Below are positions 27,947 through 38,580 of a stretch of DNA of 64,000 nucleotides, piece after piece. Below the pieces are notes generated by a model, which did not search any database, was not told the origin of the DNA, and saw only the letters and a program-made list of their open reading frames with translations. A program made the translations under genes and the position numbers. Every line of letters starts with the position of its first letter. Within the stretch, counting starts at the first letter, position 1. This stretch comes from Natrinema pellirubrum DSM 15624. Its GTDB lineage: Archaea > Halobacteriota > Halobacteria > Halobacteriales > Natrialbaceae. The stretch is from NCBI RefSeq assembly GCF_000230735.2, contig NC_019962.1, forward strand, positions 3,286,001 through 3,350,000, given 5' to 3'.

Positions 27947-28093
27947 CGATTCTCGATAGGGGAGACCCACTGATGTCGCGCTCGATGATTATAGACTATT
28001 AATAATGTTCGAAACGCGTAGGTGGCCACTACAACCGAGAGACGGCGCGTCGACCAGGGTGTAAGGGCGGTCGGAGAACGGAACAACAGTCGG

Positions 28094-28549
28094 TTACCGC
28101 TCGAGGTTCCGTTTCGCCCGCCGAATTTCGTCGTGTTTCTCCCCGGCACCGTCCACTCGCGCCAACCCTTCGGCGGCCTCGAGGGTTCGAACGGCGTTAT
28201 CGAGGAAGGAGAGAACGTCCCCGGAGTAGGCATAGACCATGTAGTCGTCGGTCATCACGTCGACGATCGCGTCCGGGCCCAGTCCCTCGGCGCGCAACTC
28301 GAGCAGGTACGTCATGAACTTGCGCTCGGGACAGCCACAGTAGGGGTTGTTGTCGCAGCTACAGTCCAGAAAGTCCTGCGTGAAATCCAGCACCCGCTCG
28401 CGGGTCGCGTCGTCGAGTTTCTCGAGGCCTTCCCCCTGGAAGAGCATGTCCAGCGTCGCGCCCTTGAACGCCCCTTTGGGGATGTTCGTCTCGAGCTGGG
28501 AGCTGAGCTGGCGGTGATTCTTGACGTAGATCTTGTCGGTGATGGCCAC
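28094..28549 (-). CDS. DUF5814-type cysteine-containing protein
   Basis: The 151-aa protein contains LDCSCDNNPYCGCPERKFMTYLLELRAEGLGPDAIVDVMTDDYMVYAYSGDVLSFLDNAVR. This block occurs at the C-terminus of haloarchaeal DEAD/DEAH helicases and as stand-alone proteins (DUF5814, from memory). Four Cys in C-x-C-x5-C-x-C spacing could hold zinc. A role in helicase regulation or nucleic-acid binding is an inference. No helicase is adjacent. Confidence 0.75.
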   Translation of the reverse strand: MAITDKIYVKNHRQLSSQLETNIPKGAFKGATLDMLFQGEGLEKLDDATRERVLDFTQDFLDCSCDNNPYCGCPERKFMTYLLELRAEGLGPDAIVDVMTDDYMVYAYSGDVLSFLDNAVRTLEAAEGLARVDGAGEKHDEIRRAKRNLER

Positions 28550-28714
28550 GCGTTGGCGGGACTAACGCCCGCGGATCGAAAAACGTCTCGGTCGCGAGCG
28601 ACCCGCGGGGGCAGCCGAGATCCGCCGGCCGAAACCGAGCGAGGGCATCACACACCGCGTCCGGGAGTCGTAACGTATTTTAGTCCAACCGGCTGTAGGT
28701 TCAGGTGTAAGCGT

Positions 28715-28787
28715 GTCCGGGTTGGGGTAGTGGTTATCCTTCAGCCTTGTGGAGGCTGAGACGCGGGTTCGATTCTCGCACCCGGAC
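28715..28787 (+). tRNA. tRNA-His (GTG)
   Basis: The 73-nt gene folds as a cloverleaf: encoded G-1 opposite C73, acceptor TCCGGGT/ACCCGGA, D-arm GGG/TCC, anticodon stem CAGCC/GGCTG with loop TTGTGGA, and T-arm GCGGG-TTCGATT-CTCGC. The G-1:C73 pair is the identity mark of tRNA-His. CCA is not encoded. TATTTTAG at 28676-28683 is a fitting promoter. A 30-bp copy of its 3' part lies 122 bp downstream. Confidence 0.95.
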
Positions 28788-28795
28788 TTTGTCGC
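28766..28795 (+). repeat. Direct repeat copy 1 (tRNA-His T-loop to 8 nt past its 3' end)
   Basis: This 30-bp segment starts in the T-stem of tRNA-His, runs through the acceptor 3' strand and ends at GTCGC. It is repeated exactly at 28888-28917. Confidence 0.95.
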
Positions 28796-29103
28796 CGCGA
28801 ACAAATCCGTGAGCGGCGCAAATCCGACCGAGATCGAACCCTGCCAGTCGCAGCGGCCGAGCGAAGCGAGGCCGACCGTCTGGCTACGGTTCGATTCTCG
28901 CACCCGGACTTTGTCGCGACGACCATCGAGAAGAGTGGAAAAGCCGGAAGGCGGAACCACGCGAGACGAGTGTCTCCGACTGGCACGGTTCCGACGAGTA
29001 CCTGCTGAGGCCTGTGGTGACTGTGTTCGATTCCGAACGAGAGCCCGTCGACTGGCGAGACGCCGGAGAAGGCTTTACCCGTCTCACTCCGTTTGAATTG
29101 GGC
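28788..29103. other. Intergenic region with tRNA-His-derived repeat and two hairpins
   Basis: No gene is supported. The first 130 bp hold a CGCCGC/GCGGCG hairpin (28793-28818), a T-loop-like GATCGAACCC near 28832, a CGGCC/GGCCG hairpin with loop GAGCGAAGCGA (28854-28874) and the repeated tRNA-His 3' end (28888-28917). The rest is the leader of the histidine kinase gene. Confidence 0.7.
28888..28917 (+). repeat. Direct repeat copy 2, partial tRNA-His 3' end
   Basis: All 30 bases match 28766-28795; identity stops abruptly at both ends. The 5' T-stem strand is not preserved (TACGG replaces GCGGG), so this is not a functional tRNA arm. It resembles an att-site core left by tRNA-targeted integration. 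Confidence 0.95.
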
Positions 29104-31065
29104 ATGGCTTCATCGGCCGATACAGATCCTCACTCCGGAATTCGACACCAAGTGGTTGTCGCTGAACTCGGCCAACAGGCGCTCGAAACCGACGACATAG
29201 ATCAGTTGATGCACGACGCATGCGTTGCAGTAGCCGAGACGCTGAGCAACGACTACTGTAAGGTCCTCGAGTTGCTGCCCAGTGGTGACGAACTCTTCCT
29301 TCGGCAGGGTGTCGGCTGGCGGGAGGGTCTCGTCGGGAACGCGACAGTCCCGACCGACCGGGGCTCACAGGCGGGCTACACGCTGCTTTCCGAAGAGCCC
29401 GTGGTCGTCGACGACTTGCGTACCGAGGAACGCTTTTCCGGCCCCGAACTCCTCACCAGTCACGACGTCGTCAGCGGGATCAGCGTCATTATCGGCTCGA
29501 TCGAAAACCCGTGGGGGATCCTCGGTGTACACGCCACCGAGAAGCGCGAGTTCACCGACCACGACGTTACCTTCGTCAAAAACGTCGCGAACGTCCTCGC
29601 AGCAGCGATCGAGGAAACGAGAACCAAACGGAAACTCGAGGAGCGAGAGACCGAACTCGAGCGGACGTTCGAACGGATCACCGACGGATTCGTCGGTCTC
29701 GATGAAGACTGGACTATCACGTACGCGAACGAGCGGGGGAAGAACGTCCTCGACCCCGAAGACGAGGGCTTAGTCGGCGAGAACTTCTGGCAGATGTTCG
29801 AACCGGCGCTCGGAACGACGTTCGAGGAAGAGTACCGGGAGGCGGTACGAACGCAGGAACCTACATCGTTCGAGGAGTACTACCCGCCGCTTGGCACGTG
29901 GTTCGAGGTTCACGCCTATCCCTCCGAATCCGGACTCTCGATCTACTTTCGAGACGTCACGGAACGCAAGGAGCGAGAGCGCAAACTCAAAGAGAGCGAA
30001 CGTCGGTATCGAACGCTGGCGGAGTTTTTCCCGAACGGGATCGTCACGCTGTTCGGTGCCGACCTCGAGTACACGCTCGCCGCGGGACAGGCGTTCGCGG
30101 AGTTACCGATCTCGCCGGACGACGTCGAAGAGCGGACACCAGCACAAGTGTGGGGTGACTCGGTTGCTGACGACCTCGAACCTGCACTCCGGGCGGCGCT
30201 TGACGGCGACGAGACGTCAGTCGAGTTTCAGTACGTAAACCGAGACTGGCGAGTGCACGCCGTGCCGGTGACCGACGATGCTGGTGAGGTCTTTGCCGGA
30301 ATGACGATGGCCCAGGACATCACCGAACAGAAAGAGCGCAAACAACAGTTGGAGGACACGGTCGAGAAACTCGAGAAATCGAACGAGCGATTGGAGCAGT
30401 TTGCCTACGCCGCCTCTCACGATCTGCAGGAGCCGCTGCGGATGGTCTCGAGCTACCTGCAACTCCTCGAACGGCGGTACGAGGATACGCTCGACGAGGA
30501 GGGTGAGGAATTCCTCGAGTTCGCTGTCGACGGCGCAGACCGGATGCGTGCGATGGTCGACGGATTGCTGCAGTATTCTCGTGTCGATACGGAGGGGGAC
30601 CCGCTCGAACCGGTCGATCTGAACGCGGTACTCGACGACGTTCTCGCCGATCTACAGTTGCAACTCGAGGAAACGGACGCCGACATCACGGCGGCGTCAC
30701 TGCCCCGTGTCGAGGGAGACGCCAGCCAGCTGCGCCAACTCTTGCAGAATTTACTGAATAACGCAGTCACGTACGCGGGAGACGAGCCGCCACGGATCGC
30801 CATCTCTGCAGAGCGGGCCGGGCGGGACTGGGTGGTCTCGATCAGCGACGAGGGGATGGGGATCGATCCTGACGACCAAGCGGCCGTCTTCGAGGTGTTC
30901 CAGCGGCTCCACGGCCCCGACGAACACGCTGGCACCGGTATCGGGCTGGCACTCTGTGAGCGGATCATCGAGCGCCACGACGGTGAGATCTGGGTCGACT
31001 CCAAACCGGGCGACGGGTCGACGTTCTCGTTTACGCTGCCGGCACCACGTGATCGCGATGCGTGA
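29104..31065 (+). CDS. Cytoplasmic GAF-PAS-PAS sensor histidine kinase
   Basis: The 653-aa protein has no membrane helix. A GAF domain spans about residues 15-172, PAS domains about 185-290 and 300-412, then HisKA with the phospho-acceptor in FAYAASHDLQEPLRMVSSYLQLLERRY (His439). HATPase_c follows with N-box LLQNLLNNAVTYAG, G1 DEGMGIDPDD and G2 GTGIGLALCERIIERHDGEI. No receiver domain or response regulator is adjacent, so the partner is unknown; the input is likely intracellular (redox, gas or small molecule). ATG 29104 is preferred to GTG 29014. Confidence 0.9.
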   Translation: MASSADTDPHSGIRHQVVVAELGQQALETDDIDQLMHDACVAVAETLSNDYCKVLELLPSGDELFLRQGVGWREGLVGNATVPTDRGSQAGYTLLSEEPVVVDDLRTEERFSGPELLTSHDVVSGISVIIGSIENPWGILGVHATEKREFTDHDVTFVKNVANVLAAAIEETRTKRKLEERETELERTFERITDGFVGLDEDWTITYANERGKNVLDPEDEGLVGENFWQMFEPALGTTFEEEYREAVRTQEPTSFEEYYPPLGTWFEVHAYPSESGLSIYFRDVTERKERERKLKESERRYRTLAEFFPNGIVTLFGADLEYTLAAGQAFAELPISPDDVEERTPAQVWGDSVADDLEPALRAALDGDETSVEFQYVNRDWRVHAVPVTDDAGEVFAGMTMAQDITEQKERKQQLEDTVEKLEKSNERLEQFAYAASHDLQEPLRMVSSYLQLLERRYEDTLDEEGEEFLEFAVDGADRMRAMVDGLLQYSRVDTEGDPLEPVDLNAVLDDVLADLQLQLEETDADITAASLPRVEGDASQLRQLLQNLLNNAVTYAGDEPPRIAISAERAGRDWVVSISDEGMGIDPDDQAAVFEVFQRLHGPDEHAGTGIGLALCERIIERHDGEIWVDSKPGDGSTFSFTLPAPRDRDA

Positions 31066-31279
31066 TCGGCGAACGGGAGTGCGCCGATGGAGGTGATGTG
31101 AGTCGAGGACGATACCGGTATCGCGTGGCCGACGGCGGCGGCGTTCAAAGACCGCCGGATCGGGACCACGCGCCACGCGCCGGCGATGGCCTACTCACCG
31201 GGCAATGCGCCGCCCGGAAGAAGGCGGCCTCCAGTCCCGAAGCGGGACTTTTTATCGTACGACTCCGACAGTGGACCAC

Positions 31280-31633
31280 ATGACCCACGGACTGGAGCCG
31301 ACCGAGGAGTACGACGGCTCTATCGCCGTCCACCTGCTGGACGATCAGTCGGGCCGGGAGGAGATCCGCTGTGGCTCCTACGAGGAGGCGATCGACGTCG
31401 TCAAAGCCAACCACCGCTCGGTCACGGTCGCGAAGATCGTCGACCGGGGCGGCGATGTCGTCTTTACCTCCGCGGAGATGACGATCGACGACTGGGAGAC
31501 CGAGTGGGAACGCGCGAAACGCCGCCTCTCCGTCGACGTCGAGGCGTACGACTGCCCCCACGACAACGTCGCCTGTTTTGCCGACGATCTCTGTCTCGAC
31601 TGCCAGATCGACAGGGTCAAAGAACAGTACTGA
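31280..31633 (+). CDS. Haloarchaeal protein with C-terminal Cys motif, function unknown
   Basis: The 117-aa protein begins THGLEPTEEYDGSIAVHLLDDQSGREEIRCGSYEEAIDVVKANHRSVTVAKIVDRGGDVVFTSAEM and ends with YDCPHDNVACFADDLCLDCQID. The four C-terminal Cys and one His could form a zinc site. I do not recognise the family. TTTTTATC (about 31248) lies some 28 bp before the ATG, consistent with a leaderless transcript. Confidence 0.7.
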   Translation: MTHGLEPTEEYDGSIAVHLLDDQSGREEIRCGSYEEAIDVVKANHRSVTVAKIVDRGGDVVFTSAEMTIDDWETEWERAKRRLSVDVEAYDCPHDNVACFADDLCLDCQIDRVKEQY

Positions 31634-31663
31634 GCGCGTAGTCACGACCGGCTCGAGGGGCGG

Positions 31664-32512
31664 TCACGCGGCGTCGTCGAGAAACGTCGTCAACCGATCG
31701 ACGAAGTACGCCGGCCGTTCCTCGGGGATCCAGTGGCCGGCACGGTCGACGACCTCGCCCTCGACATCGGTCGCGACCGCCTCCATGTCCCTGATCGGCA
31801 GCTCCCGAAACGAGGCCGCACCGCCGAGTGCGAGGACCGGCAGCTCGAGGGGTTCCTCGGCGTGGGCACGGTTGTGTTCGGCGTCGGTCTCGTAGGCACG
31901 GTAATACTCGAAGCCGCCCCGCAGGCCGCCGGCCTGTGAGTAACAGCGGACGTACTCATCGCGGGCCTCGTCGTCGATCGCCGACGGATCGTACGCGCCC
32001 TCCTTGTAGAACCAGTCGAGGTAGAGCCGTTCCCGGCCGGCGACTAGCCGCTCGGGCAGGTCACGAACGCCGTGGAATCGGGTGTGCCAGAGTTTCGTCT
32101 TTCCGTCTTCGTTGATCCCCGGCAGGCCGGCCTCGAGGACACAGAGCGCACGGACTTCGTCGCGATACTGGGCGGCGTAGGCGTAGGCCGTCGGCATCCC
32201 CCAGTCGTGGCCGACGAGGGCGATCCGATCGTCGCCGAAGCCGAGGTGGGCGACGAGTTCCCGGACGTCGGTCGCGACAGTGTCCTTGTCGTATCCCGAG
32301 GTTGGGGTCGCGGAATCACCCAGCCCACGGAGGTCGGGCGCGATGACGGTGTAGTCGTCGGCGAGCGACGGGATCACGTCCCGCCACTCGTACCACGTCT
32401 GTGGCCAGCCGTGACACAGGACCAGTGGCGGGCCGTCACCAGCGGTCACGTAGTGGAGTTTCGTGTCGTTGACGCGGGCCTGTCCGTGTTCGAGGTCGTC
32501 ACGTGCAACCAT
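31664..32512 (-). CDS. Alpha/beta hydrolase, epoxide hydrolase/haloalkane dehalogenase type
   Basis: The 282-aa protein shows the oxyanion motif HGWPQTWYEWR, the nucleophile elbow VGHDWGM in which Asp rather than Ser is the nucleophile, and the C-terminal AGHWIPEERP with the catalytic His. An Asp nucleophile is typical of epoxide hydrolases and fluoroacetate/haloalkane dehalogenases. It is convergent with the preceding gene. The substrate is unknown. Confidence 0.9.
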   Translation of the reverse strand: MVARDDLEHGQARVNDTKLHYVTAGDGPPLVLCHGWPQTWYEWRDVIPSLADDYTVIAPDLRGLGDSATPTSGYDKDTVATDVRELVAHLGFGDDRIALVGHDWGMPTAYAYAAQYRDEVRALCVLEAGLPGINEDGKTKLWHTRFHGVRDLPERLVAGRERLYLDWFYKEGAYDPSAIDDEARDEYVRCYSQAGGLRGGFEYYRAYETDAEHNRAHAEEPLELPVLALGGAASFRELPIRDMEAVATDVEGEVVDRAGHWIPEERPAYFVDRLTTFLDDAA

Positions 32513-32658
32513 ACGTCACCATTGCGGGACTGACGTATCAGGCTTCCGTCGGAAACGGGGTGGCGAGTCGGGCCGTTCGGAGTCGCTCGAGGCAGTCGAG
32601 CCGGGCGGTGGCTTTGTCATGCTCTCGCGTTTAGGGCCGTCGGCCCATACAGCGTCGT

Positions 32659-33945
32659 ATGGCGGACGCTCGACTCGACGGCCTGTTCGACGACACGCAA
32701 GGAAACGCGGTACTCGCGTGGGCGCTGACGATTGCGCTCGTCGCGTTGGCGATCAATCACGGGTTCGCGGACTCGTACCGCTGGTTCGCGTTTACCGCGT
32801 TCGCGGTCGCCATCGTCCTGCTTCCCGTCGTCGCGTTTCGAGATCCGCTCGTGATGCCGCCGTGGGAGTTGCTGGTGCTGGTCTTGCTCCCCGTCGTCGA
32901 CGCGACGGTCCTCGGCGAATCGCCCCTCACGTCGATCGCCGTCTACGTCGCCGTCGCCGCGGTCGCGCTCGTCGTCACCGTGGAGATCGACCGGTTCACC
33001 GCGGTCCGGATGAACCACGCCTTCGCGGTCGCGCTCGTCGTACTGACGACCCTCGCCGTCGCCGGCGCGTGGAACGTCGCCCAGTGGCTGGCCGACGTAA
33101 CGTTCGGGACGGAGTACATACTGAACGGGCGCTCGCAGGACGCGGCCAACCGCGCACTGATGATCGACTTCGGGTACGCGGCGGTGGCCGGCCTGTTCGC
33201 TGGCGTCCTCTTCGGCCGCTACTTCGGATCCGACGGCGACGAGGGGGTCGAGACGCGACGGACGCCGACGCCGCGGGACACCTCACCCGACGAGGAGCCG
33301 GATCCCGTCCCGACGCTGATCCGCGATCAGCTGGACGTCCCCGATGGGATCGTCGTCCGACTCTCCCGAGGCATGCAGGCGGCGCTCGCGATCCTCCTCG
33401 TATACGGCGTCGTCAGCCGCGATCTGACGACCGTCTCGAACGCCGCCATCGCGCTCGCGATCACGTTCCTCCCCGCGCTTCTCGAGCGCGACGCCAAGTT
33501 GCCCCTCGAGCCGGGGCTGGTGTTCTGGCTCACGGCGGCCGTCTTCCTGCACGTCCTCGGATCGGCCGGCATGTACGCGCTCGTCGGACAGTGGGACAGC
33601 ATGACGCACACGGTCTCGGCGTCGATCGTCGCCGCGGGCGGCTACGCAGTCGTCCGAGCGATCGACCTCCATACCGACGAGATCTACGTCCCGCCTGCGA
33701 TGTTGTTCACGTTCATCCTCGTGTTCGTACTGGCTTTCGGCGTCGTCTGGGAACTCATGGAGTTCGGCATCGACTGGAGCGCCCAGCGGCTCGGCCTCGA
33801 GGCGGTGCTGGCCCAGCACGGGCTCTCGGACACGATCGTCGACCTCGTCTACGATACCGTCGGGGCCGTCGTCGCCGCGGTCTGGGGCTCGTTCTATCTC
33901 ACCGACCTCTCAGAGCGCATCGCCGGCCGACTCGCGGCCTCGTGA
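32659..33945 (+). CDS. Polytopic membrane protein, DUF2238/YjdF-like C-terminal half
   Basis: The 428-aa protein has about ten membrane helices in two blocks: residues 18-195 (about six helices) and 238-420. A soluble acidic loop (GDEGVETRRTPTPRDTSPDEEPD) separates them. The second block shows QWDSMTHTVSASIVA, GVVWELMEFGIDW and SDTIVDLVYDTVGAVVAA. These resemble the polar membrane motifs of the DUF2238/YjdF family. Function is unknown. The N-terminal half may be an added sensor-like membrane domain. Confidence 0.75.
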   Translation: MADARLDGLFDDTQGNAVLAWALTIALVALAINHGFADSYRWFAFTAFAVAIVLLPVVAFRDPLVMPPWELLVLVLLPVVDATVLGESPLTSIAVYVAVAAVALVVTVEIDRFTAVRMNHAFAVALVVLTTLAVAGAWNVAQWLADVTFGTEYILNGRSQDAANRALMIDFGYAAVAGLFAGVLFGRYFGSDGDEGVETRRTPTPRDTSPDEEPDPVPTLIRDQLDVPDGIVVRLSRGMQAALAILLVYGVVSRDLTTVSNAAIALAITFLPALLERDAKLPLEPGLVFWLTAAVFLHVLGSAGMYALVGQWDSMTHTVSASIVAAGGYAVVRAIDLHTDEIYVPPAMLFTFILVFVLAFGVVWELMEFGIDWSAQRLGLEAVLAQHGLSDTIVDLVYDTVGAVVAAVWGSFYLTDLSERIAGRLAAS

Positions 33946-33946
33946 C

Positions 33947-34807
33947 TCACTCGGCCGCGTCGGTCAGTCGCTGCACCTCGTCGTCGGACAGCGACAGCTG
34001 CGAGGCGGCGACGTTCGACTCGAGGTGGTCGGGATCCGAGGTACCCGGAATCGGGAGGATAACCGGCGAGCGCTCGAGGAGCCACGCCAGCGCGATCTGT
34101 CGGCGCGTCGCGTCGTGGGTCTCGGCGATCTCGTCTAAGAGGTCGCCGTGTTCGGCCAGGTCGTCGCCGTTGATCGGGGCCCACGGGATGAAGCCGATGT
34201 CGTTCTCGGCACAGACCTCGAGGGAATCGGCCGCGCCGCGGTCGTTCAGGTTGTACCGGTTCTGGACGGTCGCGACCTCGATCTGTTCCCGGGCCTGATC
34301 GATGAGTTCCGGGGAGACGTTGCTGAGGCCGACCTGATCGACGAGTCCCTCGTCTTTGAGTTCCGCGAAGGCTGCCACGGAGTCCTCGAACGGCGTGTCG
34401 TCGTCTGGCCGGTGGAACTGGTAGAGGTCGATGGTGTCGGTCCGGAGCCGGTCCAGCGACGTCAGCACCTGATTCCGGATGTAGTCGGGGTCGCCGTGGG
34501 CGAGCCAGTCGCCCTCGCGGTTGCGCAACAGGCCGGCCTTGGTCGCGACCAGCACGTCGTCGGGATCGCCGATCGCCTCGCCGATGAGTCGCTCGCTGGT
34601 TGCCGGGCCGTAGGAGTCGGCCGTGTCGATGAGGTCGACGCCGCAGTCGACGGCGTGTTCGACGACCTCACGGGCGGCCGCCTCGTCGTCGGGTGCGCCG
34701 ATAATGTCCTCGCCCGTGATCCGCATCGCCCCGAATCCGAGCCGATGGACCGTCGTCTCGCCGATCTCGAACGTGTCGCTCTCGTTTGTAATCGAGTTAC
34801 TGCTCAC
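33947..34807 (-). CDS. Aldo/keto reductase
   Basis: The 286-aa protein carries the catalytic set Asp/Tyr in DLIDTADSYGPA, Lys in LVATKAG and His in LYQFHRPD. The NADPH-binding C-terminal part ILPIPGTSDPDHLESNV is conserved. It reduces aldehydes or ketones in the cytoplasm; the physiological substrate is unknown. It ends 1 nt from the stop of the convergent membrane protein gene. Confidence 0.9.
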   Translation of the reverse strand: MSSNSITNESDTFEIGETTVHRLGFGAMRITGEDIIGAPDDEAAAREVVEHAVDCGVDLIDTADSYGPATSERLIGEAIGDPDDVLVATKAGLLRNREGDWLAHGDPDYIRNQVLTSLDRLRTDTIDLYQFHRPDDDTPFEDSVAAFAELKDEGLVDQVGLSNVSPELIDQAREQIEVATVQNRYNLNDRGAADSLEVCAENDIGFIPWAPINGDDLAEHGDLLDEIAETHDATRRQIALAWLLERSPVILPIPGTSDPDHLESNVAASQLSLSDDEVQRLTDAAE

Positions 34808-34983
34808 GTCCGTATGTCAGCCTCGGGCCCCTTGAGAAGTCGGCTTCCCGAACGATGTGCCGGTTACGTCAGTTGGGTCCGTTTCGCCGTCCGACTCGAG
34901 AGATACCACCGTTCGTCTCGCCGGACGAGTATCGTATGGTATCATGCCCCAATCGCTAACTGTCGGGCGACCGTAGCGACGAT

Positions 34984-35274
34984 ATGGGTGCCCCCGGGCA
35001 GTTGTATGCCGCCATCATCGGCGTTCTCCTGCTCGTCGCGTTGGGAGTCAGCGTCCCGGTTCTCGTCGGAATCGCACGGGACGGCCTCGAGCGCCACCGC
35101 AAGCGACGGGCCGGTAAACTGGAGCGCGACACCGACGACGAGGAGTTCGACCGCAGGCCTCCCGGAGCATTCGAGGCGGACACGGCGGATCGAACGCGCG
35201 TGACGTGTCGTCGCTGTGGCGCGGAAAACGACGCCGAATTCACGTACTGTCGTCGCTGTACGACGCCGCTTTGA
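34984..35274 (+). CDS. Single-span membrane protein with C-terminal zinc ribbon (DUF7577-like)
   Basis: The 96-aa protein has one N-terminal membrane helix (residues 6-31), a basic stop-transfer segment (RDGLERHRKRRAGK), an acidic linker and a C-terminal zinc ribbon CRRCGAENDAEFTYCRRC (CxxC..CxxC). The ribbon should face the cytoplasm. This layout is common in small haloarchaeal proteins of unknown role. Confidence 0.8.
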   Translation: MGAPGQLYAAIIGVLLLVALGVSVPVLVGIARDGLERHRKRRAGKLERDTDDEEFDRRPPGAFEADTADRTRVTCRRCGAENDAEFTYCRRCTTPL

Positions 35275-35380
35275 CCGCTCCCGAACGGATCGAGGTAACC
35301 GATCGAGGGCCGTTCGTCGTGGGCCGTTCTACAGTTAGTTCCGTGAGCCGTCGTCACTTGAGCGTCGTATCTCTCCGATA

Positions 35381-35410
35381 GTATGGAAAATTCTTATAAC
35401 GTATTGGAAA
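35381..35410. promoter_or_regulatory. TATA box flanked by direct repeats, candidate XRE operator
   Basis: GTATGGAAA (35381-35389) and GTATTGGAAA (35401-35410) begin exactly 20 bp apart and flank the TATA-like TTCTTATAAC (35391-35400). The ATG of the following operon is at 35427. Binding on the same DNA face around the TATA box would repress initiation. Confidence 0.5.
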
Positions 35411-35426
35411 GTGTGCTTTACACGAG

Positions 35427-35816
35427 ATGGCAGAAACGTACTCCCGTAAGCTCTCCGCCGGGATCGGACTCATGGTCGCCGGCGTCATCGCATTGACCGT
35501 CGGTGCCGACGTGGCACCCGATCCGGAGATCAGCACTGCCCTCGCGATCGGCGGCGGCCTCCTCATCACGCTCGTCGGTGTCTGGTCGTTTCGCCTCACC
35601 GAGCGACGAAACGACTACGACGAACGGTATCTCAAGATCGGCCTCCGGGGAACGGCGGTCTCCCTCTGGGTGTTCTTCTGGGCGGTCGCCGTCTGGACGA
35701 CCCTCGAGCGCAGTACCGATCTCACGACGCCGGTACTCGAACCGCTGACGTGGCTCATGATCGTGCCGTTTCTCGTATTGCCGAGTACGATCTGGTACTA
35801 CGGACGGGTCATGTAA
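35427..35816 (+). CDS. Four-helix membrane protein paired with an XRE regulator (DUF2178-like)
   Basis: The 129-aa protein has four membrane helices (about residues 9-28, 36-55, 78-95, 108-125) with a charged loop LTERRNDYDERYLKIGLRG. Such proteins are often encoded directly before a small Cro/CI-type regulator, as here (3 nt gap). The DUF2178 assignment is tentative. It could be the membrane sensor or immunity-like partner of the regulator. Confidence 0.75.
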   Translation: MAETYSRKLSAGIGLMVAGVIALTVGADVAPDPEISTALAIGGGLLITLVGVWSFRLTERRNDYDERYLKIGLRGTAVSLWVFFWAVAVWTTLERSTDLTTPVLEPLTWLMIVPFLVLPSTIWYYGRVM

Positions 35817-35819
35817 ACG

Positions 35820-36023
35820 ATGGAGAACGATCTCACCGTCTGGCGGGCGAAAGCCGATATCACGCAAGCCGAACTCGCCGATCAGGTCGGTGTTTCGCGA
35901 CAGACGATCAACGCGATCGAACGCGGGCGGTACGACCCGAGCCTCGAACTCGCGTTCGAACTAGCACACTATTTCGACTGCCGAATCGAGGACATCTTCG
36001 ACTACGAGTCGGCCGACGACTGA
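35820..36023 (+). CDS. XRE (Cro/CI-type) HTH transcriptional regulator
   Basis: The 67-aa protein is a single HTH: LTVWRAKADITQAELADQVGVSRQTINAIERGRYDPSLELAFELAHYFDCRIEDIFDYE, like YgzD/YozG-type regulators. It starts 3 nt after the membrane-protein stop. It probably autoregulates the operon through the repeats flanking the TATA box at 35391-35400. Confidence 0.9.
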   Translation: MENDLTVWRAKADITQAELADQVGVSRQTINAIERGRYDPSLELAFELAHYFDCRIEDIFDYESADD

Positions 36024-36162
36024 GCGCTGGGGAACCCGATCGAAAGCGTTCAGTACTCGCTTCTACGCCGTCGACCGGCCGCTCACGTGGCGTGTCTTTC
36101 ACGACCGGGACTCGATGGCCGGCCTCACAGAGTCGGCTCTCGGAGAGGGACCGAACGGAAAC

Positions 36163-36240
36163 GCCGTCCCGGATTTGACCGGGAGGTCCGGATTGCTTCA
36201 CTGCAGGGGCTAGCTGTGGAGTTAGCATCCGCTCGGGAAA
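36163..36240 (-). repeat. Distant tRNA-Phe-derived repeat copy
   Basis: On the minus strand TCCCGAGCGGAT is followed about 45 nt later by CCCGG-TCAAAT-CCGGG, a T-arm like that of tRNA-Phe. The same order occurs in the copy at 36725-36812, with interrupted identity (GCTTC, GGGGCTA/GCGGGCTA, ATCCGCTCGGGA). It is thus a diverged member of the same element, 558 bp from the second copy. Confidence 0.6.
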
Positions 36241-36271
36241 ATACAAGACCGAAGCGGCCCATGAGTCGGAT

Positions 36272-36484
36272 ATGGTCGACCAGAACGTCGGTGGCCGTGA
36301 CAGACTCGTCCGCGCACTACTCGCCGTTGTGCTGACGCTCGTCGCAGCAACCACGCTCCGAAACGGCAAGCGCAAGACCGGCCTACTTGCCCTCGTCGGG
36401 GCGCTCGGGCTCGGCTTCAACGCGACGACGTGTTTCTGCGGGCTGAATGAGGCGCTCGGGATCGACACGACGACCGACGAGTAG
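36272..36484 (+). CDS. DUF2892 (YgaP-like) inner-membrane protein
   Basis: The 70-aa protein has NVGGRDRLVRALLAVVLTLVAATTL followed by GLLALVGALGLGFNATTCFCGLNEALGI. Two membrane helices, the N-terminal NVGGxDRxxR and the Cys-containing second half are the DUF2892 signature. Relatives accompany rhodanese-like proteins; none is adjacent here. Function unknown. Confidence 0.88.
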   Translation: MVDQNVGGRDRLVRALLAVVLTLVAATTLRNGKRKTGLLALVGALGLGFNATTCFCGLNEALGIDTTTDE

Positions 36485-36843
36485 CGCCCCTTCTTCGAGC
36501 GAAAGAGAGCGACTACGCCTCGTTCACAAGCCGTTCAGCCTCGAGTTCCGTTCCCGACTCGAGTGATACCGACAGCGAATGCTGGTCGGCGGGACGTATA
36601 ATGAAACGCCCGCCAGCGAAGGGTGCGTTCATGAGCCGGTTCAAATCGCTCCGGAATCACGGGGACAACACTGTCGAAATCCACCGCTGTACGGTCAATC
36701 TGCAACGAACCGCAAAAGGATGCTGCCTCCCGGATTTGAACCGAAGGAAGACATTCCTGCTCGCTTCGCTGCGCGGGCTATGACTTCCAGGGTTCAGAAT
36801 CCGCTCGGGAGCGTTTTTACTGCTCACTTCGTTCGCAGGAAAA
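36485..36843. other. Intergenic region with tRNA-Phe-derived repeat
   Basis: No gene is supported; small frames here only translate the tRNA-like repeats. On the minus strand the segment downstream of tRNA-Phe contains a CTGC/GCAG hairpin with loop GAACGAAGTGA (36820-36838), a TTCTGAACCC T-loop-like motif near 36793, and a partial copy of the tRNA-Phe 3' end (36725-36743). Confidence 0.7.
36725..36743 (-). repeat. Partial copy of the tRNA-Phe 3' end
   Basis: 19 bp (GCCTCCCGGATTTGAACCG on the plus strand) match 36848-36866 exactly, 123 bp from the genuine tRNA. On the minus strand the T-arm TTCGG-TTCAAAT-CCGGG can still pair through two G-U pairs. Confidence 0.9.
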
Positions 36844-36917
36844 TGCCGCCTCCCGGATTTGAACCGGGGACAGCTCGATCTTCAGTCGAGTGCTCTCCCA
36901 GTCTGAGCTAAGGCGGC
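36844..36917 (-). tRNA. tRNA-Phe (GAA)
   Basis: On the minus strand the 74-nt gene has acceptor GCCGCCT/AGGCGGC, anticodon stem CTCGA/TCGAG with loop CTGAAGA (anticodon GAA), T-arm CCCGG-TTCAAAT-CCGGG and discriminator A73. No CCA is encoded. Confidence 0.95.
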
Positions 36918-37137
36918 GCATCTCTTTCTCCGTCCATCGTATAAAAAAGGATTTCGAATCGCGATCGTCGTTCCGATCGGCTTACAGATGGCCGACCGGC
37001 GACCGGACCGCTCGAGTACGGTTGTGATTCGTGAGTAATGGAGGCGATACACGCGACTCTACGTGCCATTACCGGCGTCTGTTGGAATTTCGGATATTCA
37101 AGACACCCTTTTGCGCCCCGGGAGGTAATACCGTGTT

Positions 37138-37584
37138 ATGGAAGCCCTTACCTCGAGTCAGGAGGCCCACGAACTCGACGCCGACACGATTCTCGAGCTG
37201 TTAGCGAACCGCCGGCGTCGCTACCTCCTCTATGCCCTTCGCGGGCGGGAGGACCCGATCGAACTCTCGACGCTGGCCGAGACGGTTGCGGGCTGGGAAC
37301 ACGACGTCCCACCGGACGAGGTCGCCAAAAACGAGTACAAGAGCGTCTACGTGTCGTCGGTCCAGTGTCACGTCCCGAAACTGGACGACGCCGGCGTCGT
37401 CGACCACGACGAGGACAACCACACCGTCGTCCTCGCGGACAACTTCGACCAACTCGAGCCGTACCTCCGGATCGTCGTCAAGGACGAACCGGAGAACTCG
37501 ACGCTGCATGCCGCCCTCCAGACCGAGTCGGGTGAGGGCCTGCTCGGCCAGATCCGCGAGAACGTCGCCCGACTCAAACAGTAA
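37138..37584 (+). CDS. Winged-helix protein of the DUF7344 type
   Basis: The 148-aa protein has DTILELLANRRRRYLLYALRGREDPIELSTLAETVAGWE, then KSVYVSSVQCHVPKLDDAGVVDHDEDNHTVVLADNFDQLEPYL. This is the haloarchaeal DUF7344 winged helix, in which VSSVQCHVPKLDDAGVV is the recognition region. GGAGGT at 37121-37126 lies 11 nt before the ATG, a Shine-Dalgarno site complementary to the 16S 3' end. Targets are unknown. Confidence 0.85.
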   Translation: MEALTSSQEAHELDADTILELLANRRRRYLLYALRGREDPIELSTLAETVAGWEHDVPPDEVAKNEYKSVYVSSVQCHVPKLDDAGVVDHDEDNHTVVLADNFDQLEPYLRIVVKDEPENSTLHAALQTESGEGLLGQIRENVARLKQ

Positions 37585-37694
37585 CGCCAGCACTGCGGCC
37601 GGCGTTGGTCAGTCAGACGTCTCGACTCGAGGTCGTTTCTCCGCGTTTGCCGGACCACTCGGACCGGCGGGTTTGAACACGGTGAAGACTCGGC

Positions 37695-37715
37695 TGGGCT
37701 CGGGCGGGTTCGAAC
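37695..37715 (-). repeat. Partial copy of the tRNA-Val 3' end
   Basis: 21 bp are identical to 37815-37835, 120 bp from the genuine tRNA. A third, weaker copy (GGCGGGTTTGAACACGG, near 37667) lies a further 34 bp away. Between copies 1 and 2 is a CCTGCTGC/GCAGCAGG hairpin (37782-37811) starting 4 nt after the tRNA end. Confidence 0.9.
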
Positions 37716-37814
37716 AACGCGAAGACTCGCTCACTGGGTTCGCGTCGCCTACTCTCGTTCGAACCGCACTCGGTCCACATACCTGCTGCTCGCGAAGTTG
37801 CTCGCAGCAGGAAG

Positions 37815-37888
37815 TGGGCTCGGGCGGGTTCGAACCACCGACCTCGGCCTTGTAAAGGCCGCGTCATGACCAGCTAGACCACGAGCCC
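37815..37888 (-). tRNA. tRNA-Val (TAC)
   Basis: The 74-nt minus-strand gene has acceptor GGGCTCG/CGAGCCC, anticodon stem CGGCC/GGCCG with loop TTTACAA (anticodon TAC), T-arm GGTGG-TTCGAAC-CCGCC and discriminator A73. No CCA is encoded. Confidence 0.95.
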
Positions 37889-37950
37889 GCACCCGAGACG
37901 AGTGGGTCCGTCCGAATAACCTTTACTCTCTGGCTCCACAGGAATCGTGC

Positions 37951-38580
37951 ATGGCGCTCGAGTCCGTCTGGAAGGGGCTGCTGGTGATCGCCGCCGTCTT
38001 GCTCGTCGGCGTCGTCCTCGTGCAAGCCGGTTTGGTCTCGGTTCCATGGGGACCGGACGAGGGGCAAGTACAGGTCCACAACGAGTCCGACGGCGGGAAC
38101 GAAACCGAACTCAAGGCCGTGGTCGACGTCGAGATTGCTGACGACACACGAGAACGTCGCACCGGACTAAGCAATCACGACTCGCTCGAGCGGGGCAACG
38201 GCATGCTGTTCGTCCACAATGGGGAACGAGACCTGACCTACGTCATGCGCGAGATGGACTTCGACATCGACATCATCTTCATCGACGCCGACGGCGAGAT
38301 AACTCAGATACACCACGCCCGCGCACCCGAACCCGGCGAGGACGGCGAGGAACTCCAGTACTCGGGCCGCGGGAAGTGGGTCCTCGAGGTCCCCCGCGGC
38401 TACGCGAACGAAACCGGAATCGAGGTCGGCGACCAGGTCGAGATCGACCTCGAGTCGAACCGGACGTCGATCTTCGACACCGTTCCCGCCGATTCGCTCG
38501 AGCGTCAGGCGGCAGTAGCCGACCCCGATTCGGTCCCAGCGGCGGCCGTCGGCGTCCGACATGTTTCGGTTCGTAGGTAA
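37951..38580 (+). CDS. DUF192 family membrane-anchored protein
   Basis: The 209-aa protein has an N-terminal membrane helix (residues 7-30), so the domain faces outside. The DUF192 core follows: VDVEIADDTRERRTGLSNHDSLERGNGMLFVHNGERDLTYVMREMDFDIDIIFIDADGEITQIHHARAP and WVLEVPRGYANETGIEVGDQVEI. Molecular function is unknown. The gene ends 33 bp before the ABC exporter and may share its transcript. Confidence 0.88.
   Translation: MALESVWKGLLVIAAVLLVGVVLVQAGLVSVPWGPDEGQVQVHNESDGGNETELKAVVDVEIADDTRERRTGLSNHDSLERGNGMLFVHNGERDLTYVMREMDFDIDIIFIDADGEITQIHHARAPEPGEDGEELQYSGRGKWVLEVPRGYANETGIEVGDQVEIDLESNRTSIFDTVPADSLERQAAVADPDSVPAAAVGVRHVSVRR

Follow-up and report, generated by a model that had tools for sequence, protein, structure and literature searches.

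What are the short stretches that follow the tRNA-His, tRNA-Phe and tRNA-Val genes of Natrinema pellirubrum DSM 15624, and why does each close with a copy of the 3' end of the very tRNA that it follows? The question is raised by 64,000 nucleotides of this genome (positions 3,286,001 to 3,350,000 of contig NC_019962.1), referred to here as the window, in which these three unrelated tRNA genes carry downstream units of about 120 bp built to the same plan. The units are members of a class-wide family of gene-less inserts at the tRNA 3' ends of haloarchaea, and such inserts come and go between related species.

Read in the direction of the tRNA, each unit begins behind the gene with a first hairpin (hairpin 1), continues with an inverted copy of tRNA positions 73-53 and a second hairpin (hairpin 2), and ends in a direct copy of positions 53-73. 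The inverted copy consists of the T-loop, the T-stem and, imperfectly, the acceptor strand of the unit's own tRNA. Because it pairs with the direct copy, the inverted copy, hairpin 2 and the direct copy together form one long hairpin. Both unit boundaries fall on discriminator positions. With tRNA genes called by ARAGORN, run without its intron option, the parts lie in the window as follows.

28715-28788, forward strand: tRNA-His(GTG), target gene (ARAGORN)
28793-28818, forward strand: hairpin 1 of the His unit, CGCCGC ... GCGGCG with loop GAACAAATCCGTGA (from the sequence)
28823-28840, forward strand: inverted imperfect copy of the tRNA-His T-loop and acceptor strand
28841-28888, forward strand: hairpin 2 of the His unit, CCAGTCGCAGCGGCCGAGCGAAGCGAGGCCGACCGTCTGG
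28889-28910, forward strand: direct copy of tRNA-His positions 53-73, offset 122
28911-28965, forward strand: probable decayed second His unit, GACGACCATCGAGAAGAGTGGAAAAGCCGGAAGGCGG (by-eye comparison)
36844-36917, reverse strand: tRNA-Phe(GAA), target gene (ARAGORN)
36820-36838, reverse strand: hairpin 1 of the Phe unit, CTGC ... GCAG
36791-36812, reverse strand: inverted imperfect copy of the tRNA-Phe T-loop and acceptor strand
36743-36790, reverse strand: hairpin 2 of the Phe unit
36721-36741, reverse strand: direct copy of tRNA-Phe positions 53-73 with one mismatch, offset 123
37814-37888, reverse strand: tRNA-Val(TAC), target gene (ARAGORN)
37782-37811, reverse strand: hairpin 1 of the Val unit, CCTGCTGC ... 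GCAGCAGG
37757-37776, reverse strand: inverted imperfect copy of the tRNA-Val T-loop and acceptor strand
37716-37756, reverse strand: hairpin 2 of the Val unit
37695-37715, reverse strand: direct copy of tRNA-Val positions 53-73, offset 120 from the A of the discriminator
37666-37694, reverse strand: probable remnant of a second Val unit, GTCTTCACCGTGTTCAAACCCGCC (by eye)

The stems of hairpin 1 and the three offsets agree with those given in an earlier note on this DNA, which had been made from the sequence alone. That note had also described a T-loop-like motif after a CCGAG block; the motif is present, and what had been missed is that it is an inverted copy tailored to the tRNA. At the His locus, identity extends several bases (TTTGTCGC) beyond the copied T of the direct copy, and the segment behind it resembles, by eye, the units that stand first behind tRNA-His in N. 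hispanicum, N. salsiterrestre and Halobiforma nitratireducens. The probable decayed second units at 28911-28965 and 37666-37694 suggest that the His and Val loci have been hit more than once. The window's remaining tRNA genes (Ala, Met and Asn) have no copy of their own 3' end.

Across the whole genome (G000), the last 21 bases of each tRNA, from T-loop to discriminator, were compared with flanks of 180 nt. At 19 or more matching bases, 16 of the 45 tRNAs have their own copy downstream and none has one upstream (0/45), and no match occurs among 1886 pairings of a tRNA with the flank of a tRNA for another amino acid. At 16 or more, the downstream count rises to 18/45 and the upstream count is again 0/45; mismatched pairs reach this level in 66/1886 cases, so that a single match of 16/21 is no proof. 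The tRNA-Lys(CTT) gene adds to the 18 with a copy that has one extra T-loop base, and a further addition is a locus (L048) read by eye as an intron-bearing tRNA-Trp with two units, where ARAGORN without introns called no tRNA. A first unit pattern occurs at seven places in this genome, six behind called tRNAs and one behind L048, and a second gives 13 matches, ten inside units and three elsewhere without unit features. The same genome holds two tRNA-Asp genes 449 bp apart (G000:C1:3549828-3550349; L027 and L028) with a similar long hairpin behind each, as if a tRNA and its unit had been duplicated in tandem.

A wider set of 98 units was excised from behind 154 tRNAs, 76 of them with at least one unit and 78 with none; the set is biased, as most loci were fetched for the neighbourhood of tRNA-Val, and since 20 of the 98 copies reach no more than 16-18 matching bases of 21, a few may be chance. 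Including the copy, unit length ranges from 96 to 171 nt with a median of 122, and 31 of the 98 fall at 120-124. The units are thus too short to hold an integrase gene. No terminal inverted repeats were seen by eye in the aligned units, a reading made apart from any transposon library. A direct repeat of 21 nt is present at the unit end, and this could be an end borne by the element rather than a target duplication.

The units are widespread among haloarchaea. A survey pattern for the inverted and direct T-loop pair, GATTTGAA-(45-75)-GTTCAAATC, which catches the commonest T-loop type only, matched in 116 of 125 genomes and all 29 sampled genera of the family, and in 286 of 391 genomes of the class (101 of these being the window's own genome and its family). 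The reversed pattern, used as a control, gave 0 in every genome listed. Outside the class, in the same phylum, 5 of 311 genomes matched (G511, G523, G569, G585 and G640), all from a single family (f16), which may reflect chance or a second host group; a rough estimate of the chance expectation is about two. Among named haloarchaea, 80 loci were fetched by way of a neighbouring gene, 49 of them with a tRNA, and 53 of 108 tRNAs, in 36 of these 49 loci, score at least 16 in the self-copy test. Copies were found in Natrinema, Halopiger, Haloterrigena, Halovivax, Natribaculum, Haloferax, Haloprofundus, Halorussus, Natronomonas, Halosimplex and others, and no self-copy was found at the loci fetched from Halocatena marina and Haladaptatus halobius. 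In three genomes compared by their tRNA sets, copies stand behind 18/45, 14/45 and 24/41 tRNAs (56/131 together). The refutation foreseen in the earlier note, a lack of copies in related genomes or a widely scattered spacing, did not come about.

Occupancy differs between close relatives. Comparison of filled and empty flanks, for which the same note had called, gave 12 pairs above the score threshold, several of the weaker ones comparing older units rather than an empty flank. In the clearest example, the sequence that follows the window's Phe copy lies directly behind the tRNA-Phe of N. pallidum (57/60 identical), and N. gari likewise has an empty or shorter Phe site (flank 53/60). Further pairs are the Phe sites of N. 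ejinorense and N. thermotolerans (48/57) and the Val sites of N. hispanicum DSM 18328 and N. limicola (59/59). The Phe loci of N. hispanicum DSM 18328 and CDM_6 differ by one unit, and there the 52/60 match lies in the following older unit, which is present in both.

Furthermore, the tRNA-Phe genes of congeners carry differing unit types or none, and some unit types sit in second place behind another unit, as seen by eye at the window's His locus and behind tRNA-Val of N. ejinorense. Differing types at one site within one genus, together with types in second place, make repeated gain likely. The longest array consists of five copies behind tRNA-Phe of Natribaculum breve (L066), in which two unit types alternate, and another genome (G052) has four copies behind tRNA-Val. 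The second unit type of the N. breve array, 144 nt long, contains CTCGACCGAAGATCGAGCTGTCCCC, the tRNA-Phe anticodon arm in degenerate form, so that its origin in the tRNA reaches beyond the 53-73 segment. In Haloferax mucosum (L128), two tRNA-Phe genes about 5.5 kb apart have nearly identical units of 111 nt, which means that the unit was copied with its tRNA or moved between paralogues.

The units are fitted to the tRNAs behind which they stand. In 78 of 96 units the inverted copy matches its own direct copy better than one drawn at random from another tRNA (17 worse, one tie). Haloferax elongans has two tRNA-Phe paralogues, and by eye the copies behind each of them match that paralogue. The hairpins, in turn, behave as modules. 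Between G000 and G052, hairpin 1 and the inverted copy are shared behind Arg-TCT and Leu-TAA while hairpin 2 is unrelated, and behind tRNA-Val of N. hispanicum and N. limicola hairpin 2 is common while hairpin 1 is not (both by eye). For the same tRNA, hairpin 1 is alike in 28/178 pairs within a genus and 20/1185 between genera; for different tRNAs, the counts are 3/1374 and 3/7521, so hairpin 1 types are mostly bound to one tRNA. The corresponding counts for hairpin 2 are 14/178 and 12/1185 for the same tRNA and 7/1374 and 16/7521 for different tRNAs, and hairpin 2 types repeat behind different tRNAs of one genome in 5/1015 pairs.

The favoured explanation is that the units are gene-less miniature mobile elements of haloarchaea that target tRNA 3' ends and are moved by a recombinase acting in trans, a reading given about an even chance of being right. 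One element of about 100-150 bp would comprise hairpin 1, the inverted copy 73-53, hairpin 2 and the direct copy 53-73. Gain would occur by site-specific exchange inside the T-loop, with the recombinase supplied in trans. Insertion would keep the tRNA whole, place the hairpins directly after the discriminator and displace the old 3' part as the copy; the next insertion beside the tRNA would shift the older unit outward and build a tandem array, and loss would follow from recombination between the direct repeats. The copy extends from position 53 to the discriminator, as expected if exchange takes place in the T-loop and has to leave an intact tRNA. The earlier note had proposed non-autonomous elements and structured trailer RNAs side by side; the first proposal gains from the empty sites, the tandem arrays, the patchy occurrence and the class-wide spread, and the second is weighed below.

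Exchange inside the T-loop is also suggested by copies with one extra T-loop base. There are 13 of these, each checked singly (L113, a substitution only, was left out), behind six tRNA identities, and their acceptor part matches the local tRNA; 122 copies are ordinary. The commonest form of the extra-base loop occurs in 0 of 239 tRNA genes, a control that employs this narrow form only, the wide expression also matching ordinary T-loops before C (164/239). Together with the paralogue-specific copies of H. elongans, these sequences appear to join a left part borne by the element to a right part supplied by the local tRNA, as an exchange in the T-loop would.

Several observations weigh against such an element. 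Selection could instead have preserved the T-loop variant as a bulge, and the covarying stems described below suggest that a strand is under selection in its folded form, something that an ordinary element recombining at an attachment (att) site does not require. No matching flank was found for the ten tRNAs that carry a unit in either G000 or G052 but not in both, and at the empty Phe site of N. mahii and N. thermotolerans, the window's closest relatives, the flank is that of N. ejinorense rather than that of the window. (The ABC-transporter gene adjoining the window's tRNA-Val is likewise nearest to those of N. mahii and N. thermotolerans.) An empty site alone is no proof of insertion, because deletion of DNA between short direct repeats has been described for haloarchaea (PMC3119063). 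No excision circle or transposition event was seen, and a double-stranded circle of 120 bp would be strained. Lastly, only one of the 12 integrase-domain matches in the genome lies less than 1 kb from a called tRNA, tRNA-Glu(CTC), and that tRNA has no unit. At this locus (G000:C1:1685246-1686622) the tRNA is followed by a stop-free tyrosine recombinase frame, and no copy of the tRNA end (up to 3 mismatches) lies in the roughly 20 kb behind it.

A real but minor possibility is that the unit is a functional RNA of about 120 nt, transcribed from the tRNA promoter and released by tRNase Z cuts after the tRNA and after the copy, its presence and absence reflecting recombinational turnover. The helix of copy and inverted copy resembles an acceptor/T-arm minihelix. 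That both unit ends lie on discriminator positions is in keeping with such processing. The earlier note had advised a covariation check, and the hairpin stems do covary, as counted by script on anchored stems against shuffles that ignore relatedness. For 75 distinct stems of hairpin 1, the Watson-Crick fraction is 0.667, compared with a mean of 0.346 and a maximum of 0.427 in 1000 shuffles. For hairpin 2, 78 of 153 units fitted the frame and gave 57 distinct stems; the inner variable positions 1 and 2 pair in 37/57 and 37/57 (16.7 and 20.7 when shuffled), and positions 3 and 4 are unremarkable (23 against a shuffle maximum of 24, and 15 against a mean of 14.7).

In 97 units the apex motif GARCGNAGYGAG was counted 51 times on the tRNA-sense strand and 0 times on the complement; 464 kb of genome, in stretches that overlap in part and contain the units of the window, gave seven occurrences. 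With RNA parameters, 74 of 97 units have a more stable fold on the sense strand than on the complement, and with DNA parameters 66 of 97 do. G.T pairs are not clearly favoured on the sense strand: mismatches in the hairpins are 16 G.T and 6 A.C, those in the inverted/direct pairing are 7 G.T and 34 A.C, and in predicted folds G.T makes up 215/3889 pairs on the sense strand and 282/3883 on the complement. As the hairpins and the inverted/direct pairing point in opposite directions, these counts do not separate RNA from single-stranded DNA. By eye, hairpin 2 fits neither a bulge-helix-bulge nor a kink-turn.

A searched span of the window (28000-38500, E up to 1) showed no Rfam family for the units, its matches being the three tRNAs and a sub-threshold Plastid-ycf2 hit antisense to tRNA-Phe, and the same tRNAs of close relatives do without a unit; both facts tell against a functional trailer. 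A precedent exists in the tandem precursor of tRNA and C/D box small RNA (sRNA) reported from Nanoarchaeum (PMC3491384), where a small structured RNA likewise lies behind a tRNA and has its 5' end set by tRNA 3' processing. The units differ from it in having no Rfam guide-RNA match, in their patchy occurrence and in the tRNA copies that they carry.

Transposition of a single strand by an HUH enzyme of the IS200/IS605 or REP (repetitive extragenic palindrome) kind, with the folded sense strand cut after the discriminator, is unlikely. It is equally doubtful that the inverted copy serves as a long guide pairing with the tRNA end or with the element's own end. The right end of IS608 has the order guide, hairpin, cleavage site, and the order of the unit resembles it. 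C-GNA-G triloops are a motif of very stable DNA mini-hairpins; the unit apices show tandem GA and such triloops, with GNA loops in 26/52 hairpin-2 and 22/77 hairpin-1 apices found by script, and the strict strand bias of the apex motif also speaks for this reading. Against this, the Y1 transposase (PF01797) was not found in 2 of 12 unit-rich genomes (G193 and G233, both 99% complete), yet 8 of 15 genomes that lack a pattern match do have it. Additionally, 30 of 47 transposase loci were examined and showed one apex motif and no hairpin-2 unit end, and the sequence of some copies is that of the local tRNA and not that of the element. Transposition by IS200/IS605 (Y1) enzymes is thus unsupported both by occurrence and by the transposase loci.

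A long shot is that the unit is a two-hairpin tRNA mimic of about 120 nt, made from the host's tRNA promoter and freed at both ends by the tRNA 3'-processing enzyme or by a recombinase that reads structure, which would re-enter through the folded T-arm and acceptor and have its inverted copy re-tailored for each tRNA. It would then rank among the smallest archaeal mobile entities and constitute a class of gene-less tRNA-gene parasites that has spread across an entire archaeal class.

Improbable, too, is an origin by hairpin-driven template switching, as a direct-inverted-direct triplication of positions 53-73, or by a casposase-like target-site duplication, either of which would dispense with a site-specific recombinase and leave hairpin modules to spread by homologous recombination between units. 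The direct-inverted-direct order with a hairpin at each turn suits it. Inverted and direct copies follow the local tRNA despite a shared hairpin 2 (Arg-CCT/Val-CAC and Arg-TCT/Pro), and modules reassort at one site, as in the Arg-TCT and Leu-TAA units of G000 and G052 with their common hairpin 1. However, inverted copies often match badly in their acceptor half and so do not look freshly made, and the recurrence of hairpin types between genera needs transmission.

That the units are deletion-shrunk remnants of ordinary large integrative elements or proviruses is hardly credible given their like architecture and size over 98 units and the lack of a far copy (up to 3 of 21 mismatches) in 18 stretches of about 20 kb behind unit-less tRNAs of G000, and the point in its favour is the tRNA-Val locus of N. 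zhouii (L058, offsets 1-925), where an insert of about 900 bp holds, by eye, a reversed lipoprotein-like frame. This insert ends in a hairpin-2 end and a tRNA copy like those of the short units and is possibly a cargo-bearing relative. The far-copy search covered 20 stretches of about 20 kb, the 18 behind unit-less tRNAs among them and tRNA-Gln-CTG, Leu-GAG and others outside them, and it set aside the tRNA itself and look-alike tRNAs. Nor did a viral carrier come to light: GACCGTCT-N7-GTTCRAWYC matched at 25 places in a single scan of viral contigs, and on inspection none of these showed the features of a unit.

Close known systems include tRNA-integrated elements that use the att sites of tyrosine recombinases, which also target the 3' part of a tRNA gene, keep one gene complete and displace a partial copy to the far end. 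Tandem integration is known for archaeal and bacterial tRNA-gene elements and proviruses (PMC8371274, PMC9897764). The units share the whole tRNA and the far-end direct repeat, and empty sites exist in related strains, although deletion between direct repeats would look alike. In contrast to these elements, they carry no integrase gene or any other gene in their 120 bp or so, stand behind up to 24 of 41 tRNAs and possess two covarying hairpins and an inverted tRNA copy.

Short, transposase-free, abundant and strain-variable repeats are also known from Haloquadratum, namely miniature inverted-repeat transposable elements (MITEs), palindrome-associated transposable elements (PATEs), which have near-terminal palindromes, and small mobile repeats (SMRs); in the sections of PMC3119063 consulted, none of them is linked to the 3' ends of tRNA genes or contains a copy of its target. 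Unlike these, the units have no apparent terminal inverted repeat by eye and do have a 21-nt direct repeat. Furthermore, the Y1 transposase expected to act on a PATE in trans was not found in unit-rich G193 and G233. Elements of IS200/IS605 descent leave no target duplication, and the 21-nt repeat of the units might be either a duplication of this kind or an end that the element carries. REPs, bacterial interspersed mosaic elements (BIMEs) and REP doublets forming hairpins (REPINs) are scattered extragenic repeats tied to RAYT (REP-associated tyrosine) transposases and form mosaics of conserved, reassorting hairpins. The units resemble them in this mosaicism and differ in standing behind tRNA genes to which they are tailored. 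No description of hairpin units at tRNA tails was found in an open-access library, most subscription papers lying outside its coverage, and the family is apparently undescribed so far.

If the favoured explanation holds, a large share of haloarchaeal tRNA genes carry an overlooked structured insert that accounts for much of the variation in their 3' flanks and may influence tRNA 3' processing and trailers. These inserts would show site-specific insertion at tRNA genes in a minimal, naturally occurring form and would point to a new recombination activity widespread in the class. Which enzyme moves 120 bp of gene-less DNA into tRNA genes would then be a testable question in laboratory strains such as Haloferax volcanii.

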